NCBI RefSeq assembly: GCF_000174435.1
Contig: NZ_ACJN02000003.1
Coordinates: 636,263-700,262 of the forward strand
Length of the DNA: 64,000 bases
Reading direction: 5' to 3'
Source of the DNA: Desulfonatronospira thiodismutans ASO3-1
Lineage (GTDB): Bacteria; Desulfobacterota; Desulfovibrionia; Desulfovibrionales; Desulfonatronovibrionaceae
Positions within the stretch are counted from its first letter, which is position 1, and each line of letters starts with the position of its first letter. The translations under genes were made by a program, and so were the position numbers. Below the pieces are notes generated by a model, which saw only the letters and a program-made list of their open reading frames with translations, was not told the origin of the DNA and ran no database searches. Positions 1,570 to 32,668 of the stretch are shown here, one piece after another.

Positions 1570-2571
1570 TCAGACCTCCCTGAATCTCTCCAGAGTCTCT
1601 ATAAACTCGTCCTCGCATTCCAGGAAGACGTCCACCAGGGTGGGATCAAAATGCGAACCCTTGCCGTCTCTGATTATGGCCCGTGTCTTTTCATGGGAGA
1701 AGGCGTCCTTGTACACTCTTTTGGAGGCCAGTGCGTCATAGACGTCTGCTACAGCCAGGATCCTGGAGGCAAGGGGGATATCCTCTCCGGCAAGGCCGTC
1801 CGGATACCCTGATCCGTTCCATTTCTCATGGTGATACCTGGCGATATCCGCGGACATCCTCAGATAATTGGCTTTGGGATTCTGCTGGATGGTGCTTTTG
1901 AGGGTATCGTAGCCGATGGTGGTGTGGGTTTTCATGATCTCAAACTCTTCCTCGTCCAGTCTGCCTGGTTTGAGGAGGATATGGTCCGGTATGCCCACCT
2001 TGCCGATATCGTGCAGGGGACTGGTGGAGTAAATGTCGTCGATGAAACGCCGGTTTACGATATCCTGATACATGGAATTGCGCAGCAGAAACTCGGAAAC
2101 AATACGGCAGTAGCTCTGGATTCTTTCTAAGTGCAGCCCGGTCTCGGGATCCCTGGTCTCGGCAAGTTTGGCCATGGCGAATATGACTGTGTCCTTGCTC
2201 TGCAGACTGAAGATACGCTCGCTGGCTTTAAGTCTCACCAGCAGTTCAGACTTATCCACCGGCTTGGTAAGGTAGTCGTCCACTCCGGACTCGAATCCCC
2301 GGATCAGGTCGGTGGAATCATCCCTGGAAGTAATCATGATAATGTAGGTGTATTCATCCCCTTCAGAGGCCCTGACCCGGGAAATGAGCTCCAGTCCATC
2401 CATTACCGGCATGTTCCAGTCCGTGAGAATGATCCTGGGACGGTGCTCGTGCCAGAGCTTCAGGGCTTCCTTGCCGTCTGCCGCTGCAATGGGCTCATAC
2501 CCTGTGTTCCTGGCGTACAGGGAAAGGGTCTTGCGGCTTATCTTGTCGTCTTCAACAACCAGTACTTTCAT
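1570..2571 (-). CDS. response regulator with HD-GYP domain (c-di-GMP phosphodiesterase)
   Basis: Residues 1-120 form a receiver: MKVLVVEDD acidic pocket, phospho-acceptor Asp in ILTDWNMPVMDG, and the Lys in LTKPVD. Residues 140-333 form an HD-GYP domain with the metal-binding HDIGKVGIPD, HHEKWNGSG and the signature GYPDGL, all intact. It is therefore expected to hydrolyse c-di-GMP when the receiver is phosphorylated. The ATG at 2571 is chosen because AAAGGTCT lies just upstream. A TTG at 2598 in the same frame would add nine residues before the receiver. It is the last gene of a minus-strand signalling block and follows a large hybrid kinase by about 100 bp, so that kinase is a plausible partner (inference). 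Confidence 0.92.
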   Translation of the reverse strand: MKVLVVEDDKISRKTLSLYARNTGYEPIAAADGKEALKLWHEHRPRIILTDWNMPVMDGLELISRVRASEGDEYTYIIMITSRDDSTDLIRGFESGVDDYLTKPVDKSELLVRLKASERIFSLQSKDTVIFAMAKLAETRDPETGLHLERIQSYCRIVSEFLLRNSMYQDIVNRRFIDDIYSTSPLHDIGKVGIPDHILLKPGRLDEEEFEIMKTHTTIGYDTLKSTIQQNPKANYLRMSADIARYHHEKWNGSGYPDGLAGEDIPLASRILAVADVYDALASKRVYKDAFSHEKTRAIIRDGKGSHFDPTLVDVFLECEDEFIETLERFREV

Positions 2572-2668
2572 AAGACCTTTTGTATTTTTTGTATGCAAAC
2601 CTGTTAATCTCTGGTCATTAAGCCCGGGGGATCATCTGCCATGACCAGCTGAATGTAACGCCCCGGTC

Positions 2669-12778: not shown

Positions 12779-14014
12779 TCACAGGCTGTATTCAAAAAAG
12801 TCCCTGGCCCAGCCCATGGCCCAGGAATAGGACATGGCCACTTTCCTGGGGTGCAGGCCCAGTTGGGATATCAGGGCATCGACATTTTCCCAGTCACCTT
12901 TTTCAAAGGCTATGGCCAGGTAAAGCCAGGGAAGATAGAGGCTCTCCTCCCGGCACAGGGCCTTTTTCATGTCCTCGTCAATGGGCAGGTCCTGGACCAC
13001 GTTTTCCATGGGCATGTCGAACACAGCATCCAGAAGCGACAGAAGGCCCAGCATGAAAAGGGCATCGGGCTGGGGCCACTCATCTTTGGTGGGAAAAACC
13101 ACAAGCTCCAGAAACCTCCCCCTCAGGGCGGCGGCAAAGGGAAGTTCCGAGGGTTTGCTCTGGGGGGTGACGTCCCGCAGCAGGCACAGCTGCAGAAAAG
13201 TCCTCAGGTTTTTAAAACCCACATAGGTCAGTGCCCGCCGGATGGTCTTGATGGGGGTCAGCATGCCGAAGCTGGCGGAATTGACGTAGCGAAGCAGCCG
13301 GTAAGTCAGGGATACCTCCTTTTCCAGCAAAGAGGCCAGTTCATCCAGATCAGGCTCCTCCTGCTGCAGCACCTGGAAAATCTTGAGGCGCATGATCTGA
13401 TGCGTGGACAGGTTGGCTCCTTTAAGAGTCTCGGGCCTTTTAAAGAAATATCCCTGAAAATAACTGATATTTTTTTCCTGCAGCTTCTGGAAAGTTTCCA
13501 CGTCCTCTATGCGCTTGGCCATGACCGCAACATCGCTTGTGTCAATCTCCTGCAGTCCCTCGCCGGCCACCCCGGCATCCAGGATGAAAATATCCGCCAG
13601 GTCCATCCATCTGCTGATCTCCCCTGGCTTTCCGTCCACGGCGATACGGTATCCGTCTTTTTTGAGCTCGGCCAGGGCCTGCTCCAGCTCATGGCCACCC
13701 GGGGTATGGCCTGTGATTTTGACTATGGTATTCTGGGGGGGAAGGGCATAAGGGGCGTTGTGCACAATGGCCTCGTAGGAAAAGTTGACCATGATGAATT
13801 TCTCCCCCTTCATGTTCAAAAAAGGGGATACGTAGGAAGCCTGAATCACACTCAGGGTAGCGTCTTCCGGGTTGCTGAACACGGCCCCGGCGGACTCTTC
13901 ATCCGAACGGTAAAAGAGTTCATACCCCTGCAGTCTCTTTTTGGCATTGAACACCGGTTGCCTGCCCACAAAGAGAGGTTCAATATTCCATGGTGCCGGC
14001 TTTTCTTCTTGCAT
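12779..14014 (-). CDS. EAL-HDOD (YuxH-type) signalling protein with degenerate EAL domain
   Basis: 411 residues. The N-terminal 200 follow the EAL fold (FVGRQPVFNAKKRLQGYELF, ISRWMDLADIFILD, MAKRIEDVETFQKL, YFQGYFFKRPE). The signature Glu-Ala-Leu is replaced by ELF, and several metal ligands are missing, so c-di-GMP hydrolysis is unlikely. The C-terminal half is a HDOD domain (LASLLEKEVSLTYRLLRYVNSASFG, IKTIRRALTYVGFKNLRTF), as in proteins that connect signalling to gene expression or motility. AAAGGAAG precedes the ATG. It lies directly upstream of the membrane hybrid kinase and is probably co-transcribed with it, downstream of element M3. Confidence 0.9.
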   Translation of the reverse strand: MQEEKPAPWNIEPLFVGRQPVFNAKKRLQGYELFYRSDEESAGAVFSNPEDATLSVIQASYVSPFLNMKGEKFIMVNFSYEAIVHNAPYALPPQNTIVKITGHTPGGHELEQALAELKKDGYRIAVDGKPGEISRWMDLADIFILDAGVAGEGLQEIDTSDVAVMAKRIEDVETFQKLQEKNISYFQGYFFKRPETLKGANLSTHQIMRLKIFQVLQQEEPDLDELASLLEKEVSLTYRLLRYVNSASFGMLTPIKTIRRALTYVGFKNLRTFLQLCLLRDVTPQSKPSELPFAAALRGRFLELVVFPTKDEWPQPDALFMLGLLSLLDAVFDMPMENVVQDLPIDEDMKKALCREESLYLPWLYLAIAFEKGDWENVDALISQLGLHPRKVAMSYSWAMGWARDFFEYSL

Positions 14015-14242: not shown

Positions 14243-15520
14243 TTATTGTATTTCTCCGGCCCAGACAAATGACGGGCCTTTTGTCTTTTTGGCCTGGTAC
14301 ATGGCCTTGTCCGCTGTATTCACCAGGCGGTCCAGTGTATCGCCATGTTCCGGGAATGCCGCCAGTCCCGCACTAATGTTCATATTCACAGCCTTTCCAG
14401 CGCTGGTATCAAACTGCGGGTTCCACTTTTCCAGAATTTTGCCCGCTACTTCTTCTGCTTCCCTGGGGTTTTTCATCTGGGGCAGTATCACTGCGAACTC
14501 GTCCCCTCCAAGCCTGGCCGGAATATCGGATTCCCTTAGACAACTCTTGATGCGCCTGGCGGTTTCCACGAGGACCTCATCACCTGCTGCATGTCCCAGC
14601 CTGTCGTTTATCTCCTTGAACCCGTCAAGATCCAGGTAAAGCATGCCGACAAAATTGCCGTAACGCCTGGCCTGGGAAAGAACATGTTCCAGCCTGTCCA
14701 TGAACAGGTTCCTGTTGCCAAGTCCGGTCAGGGAATCGTACATGGCCATGTACTCGCATTTCTGCCTGCTTTTCTCCTGCTGGGTGATGTCCAGGGACAT
14801 GAGCACCACCCCGGCATGGCCCCCTGCTGAATCCTGCATGGGGTAGCCGTTGTTGTACCAGTACCTGCCGTCATTAAAACTCACCCGGCCGCTGGATGGC
14901 CGGCCGGAGACAAAAGTATCCTGGACAGGACAGTCCTGGCAGGGAGTATCAGCGCTGTGCAGTATTTCATGGCAGGTCCTGCCGGATATTTGTGCGAAAT
15001 CCTTACCTATATTATCCTGAGCAGCCCTGTTGGCCCAGAGAATATTGTATCCCTTGTCCATGTAAAGCATCATCTCCTGGATGCTGTCCAGGATCAAGTG
15101 CAAAGCCCTGCCCTGCTGCCGCAGTTCCTGCTGTGCCTGCCTGGCCTTGATGCGGGCCTTGATCATGGGCAGAAGCTCTTGGGGGTTGATGGGCTTGACA
15201 ATATAGTCGTCCGCCCCCCGGGCAAGGGTTTCAGCCATTTCACTCCTGGGAGCCCAGGCAGACATTATAAGCACACTTGGATCGTTAAACGCCGGCTCGG
15301 ACTTGATCCTGGAACACAGCTCCAGTCCTATTTCATCCGGGAGGTACACATCCAGCAGAATTATTTCAGGGCGTTCCCTGCCGACGATATCCATGGCCTG
15401 TTGCCCGGTATCGGCTTTAAATACCTGGTAACCAGCATTTTCCAGGTGAAATACGATAAAATCCAGGGTGCTGCGATCATCGTCAACAACAAGTATCCTG
15501 GCGGATTGAAAATTTTCCAT
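14243..15520 (-). CDS. response regulator diguanylate cyclase: REC-PAS-GGDEF
   Basis: About 425 residues. The receiver (ARILVVDDD, IILLDVYLPDEIG, YIVKPINP) spans 1-125. A PAS domain with a Cys..CxxC motif (GRTCHEIL, then PCQDC) spans about 140-250. The GGDEF domain follows with DSLTGLGNRNLF and an intact active site RLGGDEFAVILPQ. The inhibitory site is also kept: RESD lies five residues before GGDEF, so product inhibition by c-di-GMP is expected. The ATG at 15520 is chosen for its CAGGAAAT site, since the longer frame starts with TTG and lacks one. The 3' neighbour is element M3. Together with the HD-GYP protein at 1570 it could set c-di-GMP level under phosphorelay control. Confidence 0.92.
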   Translation of the reverse strand: MENFQSARILVVDDDRSTLDFIVFHLENAGYQVFKADTGQQAMDIVGRERPEIILLDVYLPDEIGLELCSRIKSEPAFNDPSVLIMSAWAPRSEMAETLARGADDYIVKPINPQELLPMIKARIKARQAQQELRQQGRALHLILDSIQEMMLYMDKGYNILWANRAAQDNIGKDFAQISGRTCHEILHSADTPCQDCPVQDTFVSGRPSSGRVSFNDGRYWYNNGYPMQDSAGGHAGVVLMSLDITQQEKSRQKCEYMAMYDSLTGLGNRNLFMDRLEHVLSQARRYGNFVGMLYLDLDGFKEINDRLGHAAGDEVLVETARRIKSCLRESDIPARLGGDEFAVILPQMKNPREAEEVAGKILEKWNPQFDTSAGKAVNMNISAGLAAFPEHGDTLDRLVNTADKAMYQAKKTKGPSFVWAGEIQ

Positions 15521-15746
15521 ATTGATTTCCTGATTCAACAGTTAGTTGAAAAAAATAAAGAAAGGGTATGTTCTTTATGAAAAGCGCTTACTGGTAAATG
15601 ATTGCAAAAATAATTGCCATGCTCTGGGAAAATCCTGCGCTTCCCGGTATGCCGATAGTTAAGCATGTATTAGTGTCGATACAGTGTTATTTCGTACCTG
15701 ATATTTCCGTGAGGTCAATAATAAATATCAAAGGCCTGACATGCAG

Positions 15747-22947: not shown

Positions 22948-24030
22948 TTACTTCAACGCCTTAAGCACCTGCGGGGCCATCTTCTCCAGAGGCAGCTCCT
23001 TATCTACAGCCCCCAGCTTTCTGGCTTCCTGGGGCATGCCGTAGACCACGCAACTGGCTTCGCTCTGCCCCAGGGTAAAAGCACCGGCATCGTGCAACTC
23101 CTTCATCCCGCTGGCCCCGTCCGAACCCATCCCGGTCATGATCACTCCCACTGCGTTTTTCCCAGCATATCTGGCGGCAGAGCGGAAAAGCACGTCCACC
23201 GAAGGCCTGTGTCTGGAGACCAGAGGGCCGTCCTTAATCTGGACATAGTATCTGGCTCCGCTGCGCTTTAAAAGCAGATGTCTGTTGCCCTGGGCTATGA
23301 GCGCCCTGCCCCGAAGCACCGGGTCACTGTCCGCGGCCTCCTTGACGTTTATGACGCATGAAGAGTCCAGCCTCTGGGCAAAGGCCCGGGTGAAATGCTC
23401 GGGCATATGCTGCACCACGACAATGCCTGGGCAGTCCAGGGGCATGGATTCCAGAAAAACCCTCAAGGCTTCGGTCCCTCCGGTAGATGCCCCGACCACC
23501 ACCACTCTGTCCGTAGTCTGAAACATCTCCCTGCCCCTGGCCGGACCGGGGATAACCGCATCAGCGTTCAGCCTGGGTTCTATTTGCCTGGGCTTTTCCG
23601 GAAGCCTGCTGCGCTTAGCAGACAGATCCGCCTGAAAGGCCGCCTTGACCGCATCCACTATGCGCACCCTGGATTCTTCAAAAAACTTCTTGGTACCCAG
23701 CCTGGGCTTGGTGATTATCTCCGTGGCACCGGCATCCATGGCCTGCAGGCTCAGTTCGGAATTTTTCTCCGTCAGGGAAGAGCAGATAATCACCGGCATG
23801 GGGTGCTGGGCCATGATCTTGCGCAGAAAAGTAAGCCCGTCCATGCGGGGCATTTCGATATCCAGGGTGATGACATCCGGGACGTCCGCCTCCATCTTCT
23901 TGGCGGCAACAAAAGGATCAGAGGCGGTACCCATTACCTGGATTTCCGGGTCCGATTCCAGGATATCAGCCAGGGTCTGCCGCACCAGAGCGGAGTCGTC
24001 CACGATCATAACCCGGATTTTTCTGTTCAT
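22948..24030 (-). CDS. cheB: protein-glutamate methylesterase/deamidase CheB
   Basis: 360 residues. Receiver at 1-120 ([43 protein letters not shown]), a linker, then the methylesterase domain at about 170-355. The catalytic triad is visible: Ser in [13 protein letters not shown], His in [10 protein letters not shown] and Asp in [12 protein letters not shown]. It removes methyl groups from chemoreceptor glutamates when phosphorylated by CheA. GGGAA lies before the ATG. It is immediately downstream of cheR, the usual adaptation pair of a chemosensory operon. Confidence 0.96.
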
Positions 24031-24088: not shown

Positions 24089-24955
24089 TCATATTTTTCT
24101 GTACACTGTGGGCCTGGTTTGTTTCAGGGGAAGATCCATGCCGTTCAGGGTTTCCGAGTGTCCTATGAACAGATAGCCTCCAGGCTCCAGAAATTTGCAG
24201 AGCTTCCGGAATAGGGCCTCCTGCACCGGCCGCTCAAAATATATTATCACGTTGCGGCAGAATATGATGTCCATCTTCTCCCGGAAGGATATATCCTGGA
24301 GAAGATTCATCTCCCTGAAGGCTACTCTTTTTCTGAGTTCCGGCACAATACGTATGAGCTGCCTGTTGCGGTCCCTGCTGCGCAGGAGATATTTCTTCCT
24401 GAGCACGGGTGGAATGGCTTCAGCATCTTTTACCGGATATACCGCCCTTTCGGCCTCCTTGAGCACCTGCCTGGAGATGTCCGTGGCCAGAATATTATAG
24501 TCAAAAACTGGATGCTCAATTCCGAATTCGTTAAGGACCATAGCCAGAGTATAAGGCTCCTTTCCGTTGGAACATCCGGCGCACCAGGCCATGATCCGTC
24601 CACCCTCTGGATACCTTTCCATCCACTCCGGCAGCAACTCTTTATACAGAATATCAAAATGATGCTCTTCCCGGAAAAAATCCGTCTTGTTGGTGGTCAC
24701 TGCGTCCACCAGGTGCGGCATCTCCAGTTCCAGTCCCTTCAGGCTGAACAGATAATCCCGGTACTCCTCAAAGTTGGTCATATTCAAACTGCGCAGTCTC
24801 TTACTGAGTCTGGACTCCAGCATGGTCTTTTTGGAAGGGGGCATCTTGATCCCGAACTCGGTCTGGATAAAATGCCCCAGTTTCTTGAACTCCTGGACTG
24901 TCATGGGCCTGGGCAACGACCACTGCCCGTTTTTCAGATTGTCATTGTGGTTCAT
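24089..24955 (-). CDS. cheR: chemoreceptor methyltransferase CheR
   Basis: About 288 residues. The N-terminal helical domain ([33 protein letters not shown]) is followed by the SAM-binding domain: [20 protein letters not shown] is the CheR nucleotide motif, then [14 protein letters not shown] and [18 protein letters not shown], ending [13 protein letters not shown]. It transfers methyl groups from SAM to receptor glutamates. The ATG at 24955 is taken because CCGGAAAAG precedes it and the family start fits. The longer frame from 25021 adds residues that do not look conserved. It lies between cheW and cheB. Confidence 0.95.
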
Positions 24956-25048
24956 GACTTTTCCGGTTTCAGATTGAAAGATGCACCTGCAAAAAATTGG
25001 AAGAAGGGTTTTAGCCTTCAAAGTTAACTTTGTAACTTGTTGATTTTT

Positions 25049-25154: not shown

Positions 25155-25676
25155 TCAGCCTGTACCTGAGGCCACGCTTTCAGCTGATACCTGATCAGAC
25201 TTTTCGGTTATGGAGCTAAGCTCCTCAACGCTGAATACAGACTGGATATCCAGGATGATAACAAACTTGTCCTCCAGCTTGCCTATTCCGCGAATAAACT
25301 GGGTGTCTATCTTGCTGCCCAGCCTGGGAGCCTTTTCAATCTGCTCCGGGGGGATATCCAGCACTTCCTGCACCCCGTCCACCAGGGCCCCCATGATGCT
25401 GGATTCCTCATGGATGGACAGCTCCACGATAATGATGCAGGTGTCCACGGTCTTTTCCCCCTGCCCCAGGCCGAACTTGACCCGCAGGTCCACCACTGGG
25501 ACTGCATGGCCGCGGACATTTATCACCCCCAGCATATAGTCTTCAGTCCTGGGAACCTTGGTGATACTGGTATATTCCAGGACCTCACGCACTGAATCTA
25601 TATTCAGCCCGAACAGGTCCTGATCCAGATAAAATGTAAGGTAGGTGTTGCTTAGACCAGCTTTTGCATTGTCCAT
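25155..25676 (-). CDS. cheW: chemotaxis coupling protein CheW
   Basis: 173 residues that fit CheW throughout: YLTFYLDQDLFGLNIDSVRE, VLEYTSITKVPRTEDYMLGV, INVRGHAVPVVDLRVKFGLG, then IMGALVDGVQEVLDIPPEQI and GKLEDKFVIILDIQSVFSVE. It links receptors to CheA at the inner face of the membrane. The start has a good AAGGAG site. The C-terminal 20 residues (SVSAESVASGTG-like) are a loose tail. It lies between the MCP gene and cheR, with hairpin sequences in both flanking gaps, so its output may be set separately from its neighbours. Confidence 0.95.
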   Translation of the reverse strand: MDNAKAGLSNTYLTFYLDQDLFGLNIDSVREVLEYTSITKVPRTEDYMLGVINVRGHAVPVVDLRVKFGLGQGEKTVDTCIIIVELSIHEESSIMGALVDGVQEVLDIPPEQIEKAPRLGSKIDTQFIRGIGKLEDKFVIILDIQSVFSVEELSSITEKSDQVSAESVASGTG

Positions 25677-25796: not shown

Positions 25797-27875
25797 CTAG
25801 TATTTTTCAAACTCCTGGTCCTCGGCATCCTCGGCCCCCATGTCCAGGGACAGCCGTTTTTTGGAACGCCCGCCTTGCTGTTCTTTGTTCTGGCCAAGCT
25901 GCATCCTGCTTTTCCGGACGTCCTGCTTAGCCCCGCCCTGCTGCGCGGTATACTTTGCAGTCCTCAGGGCTTCTTGCCGGCCGCTTCCATGTTCATCCAC
26001 CCTGAAGAATCCAATGATGCTCTGAAGCTGCTGGGCCTGGCTGGACAATTCCTCGGCAGTGGAAGAAAGCTCCTCTGAAGAGGAGGCATTCTGCTGCACC
26101 ACCTGGTCCAGCTGCTGGATGGCCTTGTTTATTTGTTCCGCACCTGAAGTCTGTTCCTTGGAGGATGCACTTATCTCCTGCACCAGATCCGCTGTCTTCT
26201 GGATATCCGGAACCATTTTCTTAAGCATTTCACCGGCTTTTTCAGCCACCTGAACACTGGAAGCAGACAGTCCACTGATCTCGTTGGCCGCCTGACCGCT
26301 TCTTTCGGCCAGCTTGCGCACTTCAGCCGCCACCACTGCAAAGCCCTTGCCTGCCTCGCCGGCCCGGGCCGCTTCAATAGCGGCGTTCAGGGCCAACAGA
26401 TTGGTCTGCCGGGCGATCTCCTCGATGATGCTGATCTTTTCGGCAATATCGCGCATGGCCTGTACTGTATCCTGCACCTGCTGTCCACCATCTTCTGCAT
26501 CCCTGGCCGCCTGCAGGGCTATCTTTTCAGTTTGAGCGGCATTGTCCGCATTCTGCTGGATGTTGGAGCCCATCTGTTCCATGTTGGAGGAAACCTCTTC
26601 CAGGTTGGAAGCCTGTTCCGTGGCTCCCTGGGACATCTCTTCGGAAGAGGAGCTCATCTCCTCGCTGCCGGCGGCCACGTTGTCCGCGGAAGTCTTTACT
26701 TCCTGCACCACTTCCTTGAGCTTTTCCTGCATACGTCGCATGGAGTCGGCCAGCATGCCGATCTCGTCCTTCTGGTGCACATCCAGATCCTTAGTCATAT
26801 CTCCTTTGGCCATCTGCTCGGAAAAGGCCACGCCTTTGGCCACCGGCCCGGTTATGGCTTTAGTCAGCAGAGTGCCCAGGGCAACGGCCAGAACGACCCC
26901 GATACCCATCCCGGCCAGGGCAATAGTAACCGCGTTGGCTGCGTCGTTTTCAGCTGCTTCGACTGCTTCTCCAGAGACATTTTCGTTGATGTAAATCACC
27001 TGATCCAGAATATCCATGACCGCATTTTGTCTCTCAACCGAGTCCACCATGGCCAGTTCATTCATTTCCGCATAAAGCTCGTCTGCATACTCTGCAATCT
27101 GGATCAACTCCTCAAAGTATTCAAAAGTCTGCTGGGCTGCCGGCACCATCTGGTCTGCATATATGTCAATGGCTGCCTGCTCGTTACCAGCCTGCACTTC
27201 TTCCCGGATATCTTCAACACTGGCGTGAAATGCATTGTGATAAGGCGTAATATCTCTTAACAGCTGGGTAATTTCCGGGTTGTCAATGCGAAAATCAGCC
27301 ATCCAGCGTCCAAAGGCACAGGCCGTGGCGTCTTCACCGCCTTCGAAATCAACTCCTGTAAGCAGATACCGGCCAATATTATCCATAAGTGCATAATGAT
27401 CCCCTTCAAAATCCTGGAGCCGCCCCACGAACTGGTTGGTGTTCAGGATACCTATATCGTCCAGTTCTCTGGACATGTCCAGAAACTCATTGTTCACTTC
27501 GGCCCATCTCTGAAGTTGCGGATCAAAGTCCCGCCATATAGCTGCTTCCTGTTCTGTCTGGGGCAGAGGTTCAAAAACCTCCAAAGCTCGCTGATAAGCA
27601 CTTCTGGCCTCCTGGATGTTTTCATACTGGGCTTGTCTCTCATCCATGGAAATATTCGGATTTAAAAGGGTCCTGAAGGCTACACTGAAAGTCTCGAACT
27701 CCTTTTCCACCTGGCGCAGGCTGTCGATACTGGGCAGGCGCACCTGGCCGATCTCCTCTACATGCCCTCCGAGATTGTTGGCTCCCCGCCAGCCGAAAAA
27801 ACCCACCACAAGGACTATCAGGGCCACCAGGCCGAAGCCGCCCATCAATTTTACTCCCAACCTCAAGTTTTTCAT
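25797..27875 (-). CDS. methyl-accepting chemotaxis protein with CZB-like periplasmic motif
   Basis: 692 residues. TM1 at about 10-30 ([18 protein letters not shown]) and TM2 at about 318-340 ([20 protein letters not shown]) enclose a helical periplasmic sensor. Within it, [16 protein letters not shown] and HNAFH match the zinc-binding His..Cys..His pattern of CZB domains. After a HAMP region the signalling hairpin has the canonical tip [20 protein letters not shown] plus [20 protein letters not shown]. The tail is long and charged, with no CheR-tethering pentapeptide seen. GGAGGA precedes the ATG. It lies between cheA and cheW and is the obvious cognate receptor of this system. Confidence 0.95.
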
Positions 27876-27999: not shown

Positions 28000-30093
28000 T
28001 TAACCAGCAGCCATCTCCCCCAGCCGGGATACATCAAGGATCAGGGCGATGGACCCGTCCCCCAGGATGGTGGCTCCGGAAACTTCCCGGATATGCTGAT
28101 AAACCCGGCTCAGGTTCTTGATTACTGTCTGCTGCTGTCCCAGAACCTCATCCACCACCAAGCCCATGAGCTTTTCCCCGGTGTCCACCACAACCACCTG
28201 CTCGATACTGCCGGCCTCGCCCTGTACCTCAAAAAATTTCCTGAGGCTTATGTATGGAATCAGCTGATCCCTCAGGCGGACAAAGTCCCAATTTGCTTCT
28301 CCCCTTTGAGCATTCCCTTCAAGCTCTATGCATTCGCCCACTACGCTCAGAGGGATAATGAAGTGCTGCTCCCCCACCCTGACCTGCAGCCCGTCTATAA
28401 TGGCCAGAGTCAGGGGCAGGCTGATCCTTATTGTGCTGCCCTCCCCGGGAATGCTTTCCGCATCAACAGACCCGCGCAGGGCGGAAATATTCTTCCTGAC
28501 CACGTCCATGCCCACCCCCCGGCCGGAGATATCGCTTATCTCTGTGGAGGTGGAAAACCCCGGCTGAAAAATGAGATTTAAAAGCTCTCTCTGGCCGAGT
28601 TCGTCACCTTGGGAGATAATGCCTTTTTCCAGGGCCTTGGCTTTTATTCTTTCCGAATCCATTCCCCGCCCGTCGTCACTTATGGTAAGAATTACATTCC
28701 CTCCGGACTGGGCTGCGGAAAAAGTGATTGTCCCCTGCCTGGGTTTACCCAGCTTCGCCCGTTCCTCCGGGGACTCTATGCCGTGGTCGATGCTGTTGCG
28801 CAGAAGATGCACCAGGGGGTCGTTGATGCGCTCTATGACCGTCTTGTCCAGTTCTGTGTCCGCTCCTTCCGTGACCAGCTCGATCTCCTTGCCCTTCTGG
28901 GAGCAAAGATCCCGGACCACCCTGCGGAACTTACCGAAACTGGAACCGATGGGCAGCATGCGGATACCCAGGGTGTTGTCTCTGAGCTCGTCCGAGAGGC
29001 GCTCGATTTCTTCGGCAATGGACCGCAGGGCCATGTTGCCGTCATCCCCCACCATCCTGGAGAGCTTGGACTGGGCTATGACCAGCTCTCCCACCAGATT
29101 TACCAGTTCATCCAGCTTTAAGGCGGGCACCCTTACACTGGATGCAGACACGTCTTTACTGCAGTCCTCCTGTACTCTGCGCATGGTCTGTTGCTCGGCC
29201 AGGGCAGATTCAACCTGAGTCCGGCTCACGAGCCCTGCCTGCACCAGAAGTTCGCCTACCCGTTTCTGGGAGCCAAGGGCGGCTTCAAGATCCTGCCGGC
29301 TCAAGTCACCACGTTCTGTAAGAATCTCTCCCAGCTTGCGGTAACCTTCCTCCTGCCCGTAACCAGATACATGATCGACAATCTGGATACTCAGCTCGCT
29401 GTCCTCTTCCACAAAGATAAACACATCATGGATGGCGTTCTTGCCCTGGGTGGTAATGAGAATAACATCCCACCAGACAAAGCATTTTTCCGGATCCAGC
29501 TTCTCCAGGGCAGGAATATCCTCGCTGTGGGCAATCACGTAGGCCTGCCCCAGCTCCCGCAGCTCGTCCAGAAGCATCATGGGGTCCGTGCCCATGGCAA
29601 GAATATTTTGATCCGGCTTGAAGCGGATGCGGTAGGCAAGGTTCTCCCGGGAGGTCTGAGATTGTTTCTCCTGCTTTGGAGATTCCCCGGCTTCCTGTTT
29701 TTTCACGGGCAAAAGCTCGCGCACCGACTCCAGGATTTCCTGAACTCCCTGAGAATCTTTGGCTGCAGAGTCCTGCAGCATGAGCTGTATCTGATCCTTG
29801 GCCCGGAAGGTCAGGTCCAGCAGTTCTTTGCTTACCGCCATTTCACCGCAGCGCACCAGTTCAAATGCGTTTTCCACTTCGTGGGTGAAATCAGCGACTT
29901 CCTCGAAACCGAACATGGAGCCGGAGCCCTTGATGGTGTGCAGGGCCCTGAAAACCCGGTTTATAAGCTCCGGCTCACTTGGGGCGTTGTCCAGTTCCAG
30001 AAGCGCAGCCTCAAGCTCGGGCAAAAGATCCCCGGCTTCTTCAAGAAAAGCCTGCTGCATCTGTTCTTTGTCGGACATCATCTGAGAATTCAT
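28000..30093 (-). CDS. cheA: chemotaxis histidine kinase CheA with an extra MshEN-like tandem motif
   Basis: 697 residues. P1 Hpt (RALHTIKGSGSMFGF, His near 52), a P2-like region (about 150-250), then a tandem of two 24-residue motifs at about 255-310 (KLGEILTERGDLSRQDLEAA and RVGELLVQAGLVSRTQVESA) resembling MshEN c-di-GMP-binding repeats. P3 dimerisation follows (LKLDELVNLVGELVIAQSKL), then the P4 ATPase (HLLRNSIDHGIESPEER, DDGRGMD, FSTSTEISDISGRGVGMDVV) and P5 CheW-like domain. The protein phosphorylates CheY and CheB. AGGAAG precedes the ATG. It starts 9 bp after cheY. Confidence 0.95.
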   Translation of the reverse strand: MNSQMMSDKEQMQQAFLEEAGDLLPELEAALLELDNAPSEPELINRVFRALHTIKGSGSMFGFEEVADFTHEVENAFELVRCGEMAVSKELLDLTFRAKDQIQLMLQDSAAKDSQGVQEILESVRELLPVKKQEAGESPKQEKQSQTSRENLAYRIRFKPDQNILAMGTDPMMLLDELRELGQAYVIAHSEDIPALEKLDPEKCFVWWDVILITTQGKNAIHDVFIFVEEDSELSIQIVDHVSGYGQEEGYRKLGEILTERGDLSRQDLEAALGSQKRVGELLVQAGLVSRTQVESALAEQQTMRRVQEDCSKDVSASSVRVPALKLDELVNLVGELVIAQSKLSRMVGDDGNMALRSIAEEIERLSDELRDNTLGIRMLPIGSSFGKFRRVVRDLCSQKGKEIELVTEGADTELDKTVIERINDPLVHLLRNSIDHGIESPEERAKLGKPRQGTITFSAAQSGGNVILTISDDGRGMDSERIKAKALEKGIISQGDELGQRELLNLIFQPGFSTSTEISDISGRGVGMDVVRKNISALRGSVDAESIPGEGSTIRISLPLTLAIIDGLQVRVGEQHFIIPLSVVGECIELEGNAQRGEANWDFVRLRDQLIPYISLRKFFEVQGEAGSIEQVVVVDTGEKLMGLVVDEVLGQQQTVIKNLSRVYQHIREVSGATILGDGSIALILDVSRLGEMAAG

Positions 30094-30102
30094 GGCTTCT
30101 TC

Positions 30103-30465
30103 CTATTTGAGCAGTTTCTGGACTACGGACAGAATCTGCGGGGGCTTGAAAGGCTTTACTATCCACCCGGATGCTCCGGCTTTTTTGCCTTCCTGCTTTT
30201 TCTCGTCCTGGGATTCCGTGGTGAGCATGACTATGGGGATAAACTTGTACCCCGAGGTGGCCCGGACATTTTTAATGAGCTCAATACCGTCCATGTTGGG
30301 CATGTTCAGGTCCGTGATGATCATGTCCACCTGCCCCTGAAGCTTTTGCAAGGCGTCCTTGCCGTCCGCGGCCTCCACCACAGAATACCCGGCATCCTTG
30401 AGGGTAAAGCTGACCATCTGGCGTACGCTGGATGAATCATCCACCGTCATTATCGTCTTACCCAT
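30103..30465 (-). CDS. cheY: chemotaxis response regulator CheY
   Basis: 120 residues, a single receiver with all CheY features: IMTVDDSSSVRQMVSFTL, phospho-Asp in MIITDLNMPNMDG, Thr in VMLTTES, Lys in WIVKPF. KDAGYSVVEAADGKDAL is typical of CheY encoded beside CheA. GGAGGT precedes the ATG, which overlaps the end of the STAS gene by 8 bp, and cheA starts 9 bp downstream, so STAS-cheY-cheA form one translated unit. Whether it acts on flagellar motors, pili or another output is not shown. No flagellar or pilus gene is in the window. Confidence 0.95.
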   Translation of the reverse strand: MGKTIMTVDDSSSVRQMVSFTLKDAGYSVVEAADGKDALQKLQGQVDMIITDLNMPNMDGIELIKNVRATSGYKFIPIVMLTTESQDEKKQEGKKAGASGWIVKPFKPPQILSVVQKLLK

Positions 30466-30796
30466 TTACGCCTACCTCCTTGAACAGACATTCTTCCCGG
30501 CCGAAGAGGCATACCTGGCCGAAACCTCCTGATTTCCAGGTCTCCATGACAGGCTCCGAAGGAAGCCCGGACAGCCTGATGCATTTTTCCCTGGCTGCAA
30601 AAGACTGGTGGGCGGCGCAGATAATCTGCATCAGGGATATGTCCGACTTCTCCACCTCCGATAGATCCAGAGCCAGGCTCTGGGCGGTTTCCAGGGCCTG
30701 GGAAAAAAGCTGCAGAACTTCTGTGGCATTCTGCACACTGCAGTCGCCTGTCAGCTTCAAAATCTGAATGTCATTTTGTTGCATGCTGTTATTCAT
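30458..30796 (-). CDS. STAS domain protein of the chemosensory operon
   Basis: 112 residues with a STAS fold (IQILKLTGDCSVQNATEVLQ, LALDLSEVEKSDISLMQIIC). In classical anti-sigma antagonists the segment reads Asp-Ser-Ser-Gly, with the first Ser phosphorylated. Here it is Asp-Ile-Ser-Leu, so the phosphorylation site is probably lost. Such STAS proteins occur in several non-flagellar chemosensory operons, often with a scaffold role. GGAGGT precedes the ATG, and the 3' end overlaps cheY. The partner could be the MCP-like protein directly upstream (inference). Confidence 0.85.
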   Translation of the reverse strand: MNNSMQQNDIQILKLTGDCSVQNATEVLQLFSQALETAQSLALDLSEVEKSDISLMQIICAAHQSFAAREKCIRLSGLPSEPVMETWKSGGFGQVCLFGREECLFKEVGVNG

Positions 30797-30805
30797 GGGA
30801 CCTCC

Positions 30806-32668
30806 TTAAAAAAGCTCCACATTATCTCCAAATTCGTCTTCACCTTCCGTGTCTGTAAACAGTTCCGGCTCATGAGCCTCTGCAGCCTCCTGGCCATGGC
30901 CCTGTTCTTCCTGGCCCTGCCCGGTAAAATCCCTGTATACGCTGCGCTCGGACTCCATGGTGTAGCGATGCAGTATATTGCTCAGACGCTGGGAATACCT
31001 TTCACCGGATTCAACAGGCGGCACGTGCTCCTGGATCTGCTGCTCAACTTCCTGCAGGTCTTTTATGATGCCGCTTATTTCCTCCTGGACTTCGAACTGC
31101 ATATCCAGCTTTTTCTGAATTTTTGTAGACAATTTGAGCAGCTTTGACGTCTCTTCTCGAAGATTCCGGTTAAGGGCCGTCACCTCGGTATTTACTCCGG
31201 ACATGCGGTTGACTACCTGTCCCAGGATGCTGCAGAGCCTGGCCTCATTTTGTGATCCGGCCCTGGCCTTTTCTGCATGGGAGCTGAAGTCCCCGGCTAC
31301 AGACAGAATCTCTTCCAGCACCCCGGAAACCGAGGCCACCACATTCTTGGTATCCCCCGAGAGCCTGTGGATGGCTCCGGCCAGAACCCCCAGGGGCTTG
31401 CCCCCCTCCCCGGTATGGGCTGATTTGACGCTGGCATTCAGGGCGATAAGTGCTATTTCTTCTCCAATATCCTCCAGCGTATCCATAAGACTCTGCATGC
31501 CTTCCAGATCAGAGGACATGGACTCTAGACGTCTGATTACGTCTTCGAAGTCTGAGGTGGATTTCTCAAGCACCGGAATCAGACTGGATGCATCCTGTTC
31601 CAGTCCGGCCAGCACCCCCTGGCCGCTGCCGGAATCCAGGCCGGTAAATCCCTGCATGTCCGCTTCCTGTTCCTGGACATAGTCACCTATGCCGCCCAGG
31701 CTCTGCCTTATACTGTCCATGGCCTTTCCCAGGCCGCTCCGGGTGGATTCCATCTGGCGGGACTGCAGGGAGCATACATCTCCCAGCCACCTTATCATGT
31801 CCTGAACCTGGTCTTCCTCCCTCTGCTCCCCCTGGAAAACATCCCGGGCCTCGTCCAGGCTCTGATAGACGTGTTCCACCTGCTGCCGGGTAATGTCGTG
31901 AAATTGTACCGAGGAAATTATCTCCCCCACCATCTCTTTTATGCTTTCCGCCCTGCCGGCGATGGAGCCTGAGAGCCTCTCGGAGGATTTCTGCATTTCC
32001 TGAAGCTGCCTGCTTTTTTCGTGAACACCCTCCAGCAGAGGCGTAATCTCCCTGGAATGCAGGTTATGCGCTGAATTCACGCTGACCTGCAGACTCTGCA
32101 CCTCGTTTTGCAGTCCCCGGATCCTTTCCGTGGCATCCCTGGAATACTCTTCAGTCTTGTAACCCAGGTTCTCCACCTCCTGGGCCAGGGTGACGAAATG
32201 CCTGCCCTGCTCTCCCATCCGGGCGCTTTCGATCCTGATGGACATGGCCAGCACCCTTAAGTGTTTGAGCATGGGCCGGAAATGCTGCATCTCCTTGTGC
32301 AGTTTTCCCACAGCCACCCCCAGATCGCTGCACCTGTTCATGGTCTTTTCCAGGTTCGTATCTTCAGACTGTCCCTGGATCTCTTTTAGTGAACTGTCTA
32401 ACTCTTCCATGGCCTCTTTTAAGGCGCTTCCCGAGGCCTTCTCCCCGAGTTCCAGAGCTGTCGCCGAAAGGTCCCTGGACCTGTAGTACAGGTCCTGCAC
32501 TCCCTGGCCTATCTCCAGGAACTCGTTCTCCCTGCCGGCTATCACCCGGCTCAGTTCACTGCTGATCCTGCTCAGCCTGTCAAGCCACTGCCATACTGGA
32601 TAGTCGTTGAAAGCCTGCGTCATACTGTTTTCCGGCTGAAATTCCTGCTCTGTCATTATACTTTGCAT
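30806..32668 (-). CDS. soluble coiled-coil MCP-like protein with two degenerate signalling tips
   Basis: 620 residues, no membrane segment, almost all predicted helix. Two stretches resemble the MCP hairpin tip: LRVLAMSIRIESARMGEQGR (then HFVTLAQEVENLGYKTEEYS) at about 145-190, and EEIALIALNASVKSAHTGEG (then KPLGVLAGAIHRLSGDTKNV) at about 410-450. Neither has the exact CheA-contact sequence of the true receptor at 25797, so signalling by this protein may be modified. SSVQFHDITRQQVEHV is typical of cytosolic MCP-like proteins of this group. The acidic tail ends GDNVELF. It is the first gene after a sigma-54-type promoter candidate at 32728 and sits upstream of STAS-cheY-cheA. Confidence 0.8.
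   Translation of the reverse strand: MQSIMTEQEFQPENSMTQAFNDYPVWQWLDRLSRISSELSRVIAGRENEFLEIGQGVQDLYYRSRDLSATALELGEKASGSALKEAMEELDSSLKEIQGQSEDTNLEKTMNRCSDLGVAVGKLHKEMQHFRPMLKHLRVLAMSIRIESARMGEQGRHFVTLAQEVENLGYKTEEYSRDATERIRGLQNEVQSLQVSVNSAHNLHSREITPLLEGVHEKSRQLQEMQKSSERLSGSIAGRAESIKEMVGEIISSVQFHDITRQQVEHVYQSLDEARDVFQGEQREEDQVQDMIRWLGDVCSLQSRQMESTRSGLGKAMDSIRQSLGGIGDYVQEQEADMQGFTGLDSGSGQGVLAGLEQDASSLIPVLEKSTSDFEDVIRRLESMSSDLEGMQSLMDTLEDIGEEIALIALNASVKSAHTGEGGKPLGVLAGAIHRLSGDTKNVVASVSGVLEEILSVAGDFSSHAEKARAGSQNEARLCSILGQVVNRMSGVNTEVTALNRNLREETSKLLKLSTKIQKKLDMQFEVQEEISGIIKDLQEVEQQIQEHVPPVESGERYSQRLSNILHRYTMESERSVYRDFTGQGQEEQGHGQEAAEAHEPELFTDTEGEDEFGDNVELF

Follow-up and report, generated by a model that had tools for sequence, protein, structure and literature searches.

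An MshEN-type motif pair between the P2 and P3 domains of CheA: a candidate c-di-GMP module with a one-residue spacer

A CheA histidine kinase encoded by Desulfonatronospira thiodismutans ASO3-1 carries two adjacent 24-residue motifs of the MshEN type between its P2-type and P3 domains. We propose that these residues (aa 253-301) form an MshEN N-terminal subdomain with a shortened spacer, which binds c-di-GMP and alters CheA signalling, a reading to which we assign a probability of about 0.52. The motifs are present, they are conserved among relatives, and positions I-17 and II-2 (motif number, then position within the motif) change together. Binding of c-di-GMP by this CheA is, as judged from its sequence, a little on the probable side of even, and we infer that c-di-GMP may control the kinase, whether positively or negatively.

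The analysed window is a 64,000-nucleotide stretch of the genome, in which cheA occupies positions 28000..30093 of the minus strand and encodes 697 amino acids (open reading frame, with the Pfam domains Hpt, H-kinase_dim, HATPase_c and CheW). The domain order is P1-P2-(MshEN-type pair)-P3-P4-P5. P1, P3, P4 and P5 are all present by Pfam: P1 (Hpt, aa 11-110; 29764..30063, minus strand; PF01627, 5.9e-18), the P3 dimerisation domain (aa 318-374; 28972..29142, minus strand; PF02895, 1.1e-12), the P4 ATPase (aa 425-562; 28408..28821, minus strand; PF02518, 1.1e-18) and the CheW-like P5 (aa 568-691; 28021..28392, minus strand; PF01584, 4e-28). A ferredoxin-like P2-type domain (~aa 152-241; 29371..29640, minus strand) is predicted from the AF2 model, which has the order beta-alpha-beta-beta-alpha-beta, and from a structure search in which Thermotoga CheA P2 (1u0s) was matched with Z 7.1, rmsd 3.5 and 77 aligned residues, tied with many other structures at Z ~7. 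That search used a model of P2 plus the motif pair and covered the P2 part only. A paralogous CheA of the same genome (G000:C3:90528-92531) is 55% identical to the window CheA in the P1-P2 region and has a long Pro/Glu/Lys-rich linker at the place of the motifs. As this paralogue and the comparison across CheAs show, the module is a discrete insert that replaces a flexible P2-P3 linker.

The sequence-only reading had described two Gln-ended 24-residue motifs between P2-like and P3 domains, separated by a single residue, and was correct in both coordinates and wording. Motif I (KLGEILTERGDLSRQDLEAALGSQ; aa 253-276; 29266..29337, minus strand) starts with Lys and ends with Q276, motif II (RVGELLVQAGLVSRTQVESALAEQ; aa 278-301; 29191..29262, minus strand) ends with Q301, and the spacer between them is K277 (29263..29265, minus strand), in place of the five residues that are canonical and found in MshE. 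Both motifs have the 24-residue pattern R/K-h-G...G...h...h..Q, and both look like a canonical motif I, not like a I-II pair. Against the NCBIfam profile NF053729 ('c-di-GMP_motif', cut-off 38 bits), the whole protein scores just under the cut-off (37.8 bits, E = 1.2e-9), the isolated segment scores 48.2 bits (6.9e-13), and a scan of the genome gives 48.3 bits for CheA, above the cut-off with two stretches summed; the best stretch (aa 278-303) corresponds to motif II and the second to motif I. The same profile matches all 45 sampled relatives (best 7.2e-21). In phmmer searches of PDB sequences with CheA, the best matches are the PilF GSPII domains (1.3e-9) and MshE (2.4e-5), and a profile of the 45 relatives matches PilF at 4.4e-21 and PilB, MshE and isolated PilF domains at ~1e-7 to 1e-5. 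At the level of sequence there is good support for a kinship of the CheA segment with the N-terminal subdomain of MshEN, the part that binds c-di-GMP. The earlier claim of an MshEN pattern stands in its profile and sequence matches, its contact residues and its co-change, but not in its spacer, which at one residue is unlike that of any characterised binder known to us. Because the one-residue spacer is shared by this CheA and all aligned relatives, we file the module as a short-spacer variant and not as a canonical MshEN member.

An HMM search with the MshEN profile had been suggested as a check, and its outcome depends on the profile: NF053729 matches, whereas a profile search with Pfam PF05157, which bears the name MshEN, gave no match in CheA. 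The genome also encodes a genuine MshEN protein, whose motif pair lies at G000:C3:257826-257984; there PF05157 matches directly after the pair, at 257988-258236. Because its match falls just downstream of the motif pair, PF05157 describes the C-terminal subdomain, and its missing match in CheA thus refutes nothing; it was dropped as a test of the MshEN claim. The C-terminal subdomain itself appears to be missing from CheA. Annotation by PF05157 alone overlooks motif-only proteins such as the window CheA. That the resemblance is one of chance or of low-complexity helices, with no common descent, we regard as highly improbable: short amphipathic motifs are easily matched, and the silence of PF05157 could be read in the same way, but the E-values reach 1e-9 and better, the motifs are conserved across phyla, and in bona fide proteins of the genome PF05157 matches a part that follows the motif pair.

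Relatives were collected with a query alignment that spanned P2 and the motif pair, run against 297 genomes of the phylum, and by scanning named genomes and further classes; together these searches gave ~200 distinct segments. The named records belong to Desulfobacterota, Geobacterales and relatives, several Nitrospirae MAGs and one Spirochaetales MAG; in the named-genome scan, whose records include Geomonas, Geotalea and Citrifermentans, the closest is a Desulfonatronospira MAG. Judged from these records, the motif module is no peculiarity of this genome. In every alignable CheA of the family (~200 distinct segments), the module lies between P2 and P3 with a spacer of exactly one residue. This spacer was found wherever it was read among the first 110 loci (54 by pattern, Geobacter types by alignment); of 113 further loci, 112 have it too, the remaining one being unparsed. 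Other CheA classes of the phylum have the same motif pair between P2 and P3, where the spacer measures 1, 2, 5, 6 or 7 residues; the loci with varied spacers are L152, L154, L158, L159, L161, L163-L169, L171, L185, L187 and L191. The classes with Pro at II-1 and a spacer of 7 are similar to PilF GSPII-C, a proven binder. The spacer of GSPII-C, read from an alignment of its sequence, is also 7, yet this domain binds, so spacer length can vary in a known binder. To our knowledge, no characterised c-di-GMP binder has a spacer shorter than five.

In the MshE complex as described by Wang et al. 2016 (PMC5013675), Arg at position 1 of each motif stacks, Leu at position 2 joins the Leu cluster (positions 17 and 21) of the other motif, the amide of Gly at position 3 binds guanine in each motif, and Gln at position 24 contacts ribose and phosphate. 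Across 199 distinct CheA segments, Gly at position 3 is invariant in both motifs, as is Gln 24 of motif II (199/199), and Gln 24 of motif I is present in 133/199; R/K occupies I-1 in 188/199 and II-1 in 157/199. All six key positions are kept in 116 of the 199, the window CheA included. The first Gln is absent from 66/199 relatives (a third), and Pro occurs at II-1 in 26/199, which suggests that some members are non-binders or have another role for the module; in some its part may be purely structural. CheAs of the Desulfomicrobium type (L010-L015, L090 and L097) retain the module, but R/K at I-1 has given way to Leu, the Gly of I-10 to Asn and the Gln of I-24 to Arg, and II-1 is Pro.

The PilF GSPII domains indicate how much of this variation binding can tolerate. 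The sequence-only reading was right that Lys replaces Arg at the start of CheA motif I, but counting this as a weak point does not hold up: GSPII-B has Lys and Leu at position 1 of its motifs, binds c-di-GMP at 6 nM, and has a higher affinity with Lys than with Arg at I-1 (PMC11731258). By analogy, Lys or Leu at position 1 is harmless. Pro at II-1, as found in GSPII-C, is likewise compatible with binding (PMC11731258; PMC12002112). In GSPII-A, re-created binding required Gln at both motif ends together with Arg at II-1, and high affinity required Gly at II-3 (PMC12002112). An engineered 57-residue N-subdomain of GSPII-A bound c-di-GMP on its own at 0.7 uM, so the C-terminal subdomain is dispensable for binding (PMC12002112). 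The window CheA has the residues on which binding by GSPII-A depended and, by that result, would need no C-terminal subdomain.

The same conservation bears on a different possibility, which we consider a real one although short of even odds: that the module is of MshEN descent but has lost nucleotide binding, and serves as a compact structural spacer or as a surface for docking, on which the geometry of P2 and P3 or the contacts in the array depend. Such a role is consistent with a one-residue spacer that is invariant in aligned relatives even where contact residues are lost (Desulfomicrobium type), with A at II-20 and E at II-23, which are invariant in the 199 segments and are not known nucleotide contacts, and with the precedent of PilF GSPII-A, where binding has been lost among close relatives (PMC12002112). 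It accounts less readily for the invariance, in all 199 sequences, of the guanine-contacting glycines and of Gln 24 in motif II, and for co-change that is strongest at the guanine-stacking cluster, though this cluster is a packing contact too.

The co-changing pair I-17/II-2 corresponds to Leu25 and Leu39 of MshE, which together with Leu29 are described as stacking guanine 1 (PMC5013675). It shows the strongest covariation among 1035 pairs in 115 sequences, and in 199 sequences it ranks second, behind II-2/II-6 within one helix. The symmetric cross pair, I-2/II-17, has no strong co-change, and both of its positions vary little. On a tree built from P3-P5 with the module left out, Met at I-17 and Phe at II-2 changed on the same branch in 6/12 cases (late placement) or 5/12 (early placement), which puts the pair first among 2898 feature pairs whichever placement is used. 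The probabilities computed with all branches treated as equal (1.5e-7 and 7e-6) are a guide only, the rank against other pairs being the better control, and a stricter, tree-based independent-pairs test gave 3.7 agreeing and 0 opposing pairs (p = 0.125), with too few switches. The count was not blind, as the Met/Phe pattern had been spotted by eye in Geobacter rows beforehand. Because the top co-changing pair is the cross-motif guanine-stacking pair of MshE, hairpin packing as in MshEN is probably retained, either within one chain or between the chains of a dimer.

In the AF2 monomer model the module consists of four short helices, and the chain turns between the hairpins (mean pLDDT ~84). Helix 2 stops at aa 274, which places Q276 in a loop; this differs from what is expected for MshE. 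Helix 4 runs on, with moderate to low confidence, to aa 318, the start of P3. The 70-residue model, a short helical query run without a control, found no MshEN among its Foldseek matches in the PDB, and MshEN was likewise absent from the list returned by VIA-align. Because a one-residue spacer seems too short for pairing within a chain, c-di-GMP might be bound only across the CheA dimer, by hairpin I of one chain and hairpin II of the other. We consider this unlikely. CheA dimerises through P3, directly behind the module, the likeness of both motifs to motif I suits such an arrangement, and the I-17/II-2 co-change cannot separate cis from trans; against it stand the turn between hairpins in the monomer model and the lack of any sign of hairpin exchange.

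The genes around cheA are those of a chemosensory cluster. A CheY-type receiver lies directly upstream (30103..30465, minus strand; PF00072) and is conserved beside cheA, followed outwards by a STAS protein (30458..30796, minus strand; PF13466) and a chemoreceptor with an MCP signalling domain (30806..32668, minus strand; PF00015). The STAS gene lies between receptor and cheY, and has the same position in many relatives. On the other side, a second chemoreceptor (4HB-CZB-HAMP-MCP; 25797..27875, minus strand) is accompanied by cheW (25155-25676), cheR (24089-25021) and cheB (22948-24030), all on the minus strand. Because the gene order MCP-STAS-CheY-CheA, then CheR-CheB, is conserved in relatives, the output is likely an ordinary chemosensory pathway.

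The window also encodes candidate enzymes of c-di-GMP turnover. The GGDEF cyclase noted earlier is borne out by Pfam as a REC-PAS-GGDEF diguanylate cyclase candidate (14243..15538, minus strand; PF00990, 3.8e-48), and the HD-GYP protein, a c-di-GMP phosphodiesterase candidate (open reading frame at 1570..2598, minus strand), is recognisable by its HHEKWNGSGYP motif. An EAL-HDOD gene (12779-14014) lies ~9 kb from cheB in the window, and in operons of Geomonas and Citrifermentans a gene of this kind comes after cheB (L073, L094, L119, L133 and L140). GGDEF proteins are encoded in 40 of 40 tested genomes with this CheA; this co-occurrence, run as a possible refutation, did not refute our reading, and it barely discriminates, GGDEF proteins being near-universal in the group.

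The connection between P2 and P3 of CheA leaves P1 and P2 free to travel from the kinase core to CheY and back. In the mechanism that we propose, the two helical hairpins would pack on each other as in MshE, in the place that a flexible P2-P3 linker has in other CheAs. Binding of c-di-GMP would then fix, shift, stiffen or turn this connection and the helix leading into P3, which could change the access of P1/P2 to the P4 kinase core or alter the CheA dimer or array, such that CheY phosphorylation would go down or up as c-di-GMP increases.

Most known routes from c-di-GMP to chemotaxis run via adaptors, receptors or the motor. MapZ/YcgR-type PilZ adaptors and PilZ chemoreceptors such as Cbp1 (PMC6454048) provide c-di-GMP input to chemotaxis, as proposed here, but do so through a separate adaptor or receptor and not through CheA itself. 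In common with the N-terminal subdomain of Vibrio cholerae MshE (PDB 5HTL), the CheA segment has two 24-residue motifs, Gly at position 3, hydrophobic residues at 17 and 21, Gln at 24 and a cross-motif contact pair, which CheA retains by co-change; unlike MshE, it has a spacer of one residue instead of five and lacks the C-terminal subdomain, and it lies inside a histidine kinase, whereas the MshE module lies at the start of an ATPase. Many CheA relatives share Lys at I-1 with PilF GSPII-B or Pro at II-1 with GSPII-C, but the GSPII domains have spacers of 5 and 7, an ATPase context and measured binding. The idea of an MshEN-CheA combination is already known since Wang et al. 2016, where one clause records that MshEN occurs with CheA and CheX (PMC5013675). 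The fusions named there resemble the window CheA in joining MshEN-type motifs to CheA, and that clause is itself silent on spacer, P2-P3 position and conservation (PMC5013675). In open-access papers, we found no experiments on the binding of c-di-GMP by CheA. As far as we have seen, there is also no earlier description of a one-residue spacer throughout the family, of spacer lengths that differ from one CheA class to the next, or of the co-change.

We advance more tentatively the broader proposition that a widespread CheA family, spanning several phyla, consists of direct c-di-GMP receptors that gate the kinase itself and that pair their motifs over a one-residue spacer, within a chain or across the dimer, in a geometry for which no structure has been solved. 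The module lies in the kinase of a widespread CheA family and can be expressed as a 70-residue piece, which makes direct control of CheA by c-di-GMP readily testable; it is also relevant to how much deformation of the MshEN motif (spacers of 1, 2, 5, 6 and 7) is compatible with binding. If the proposal is true, c-di-GMP would gate the chemotaxis kinase itself, not an adaptor, a receptor or the motor.
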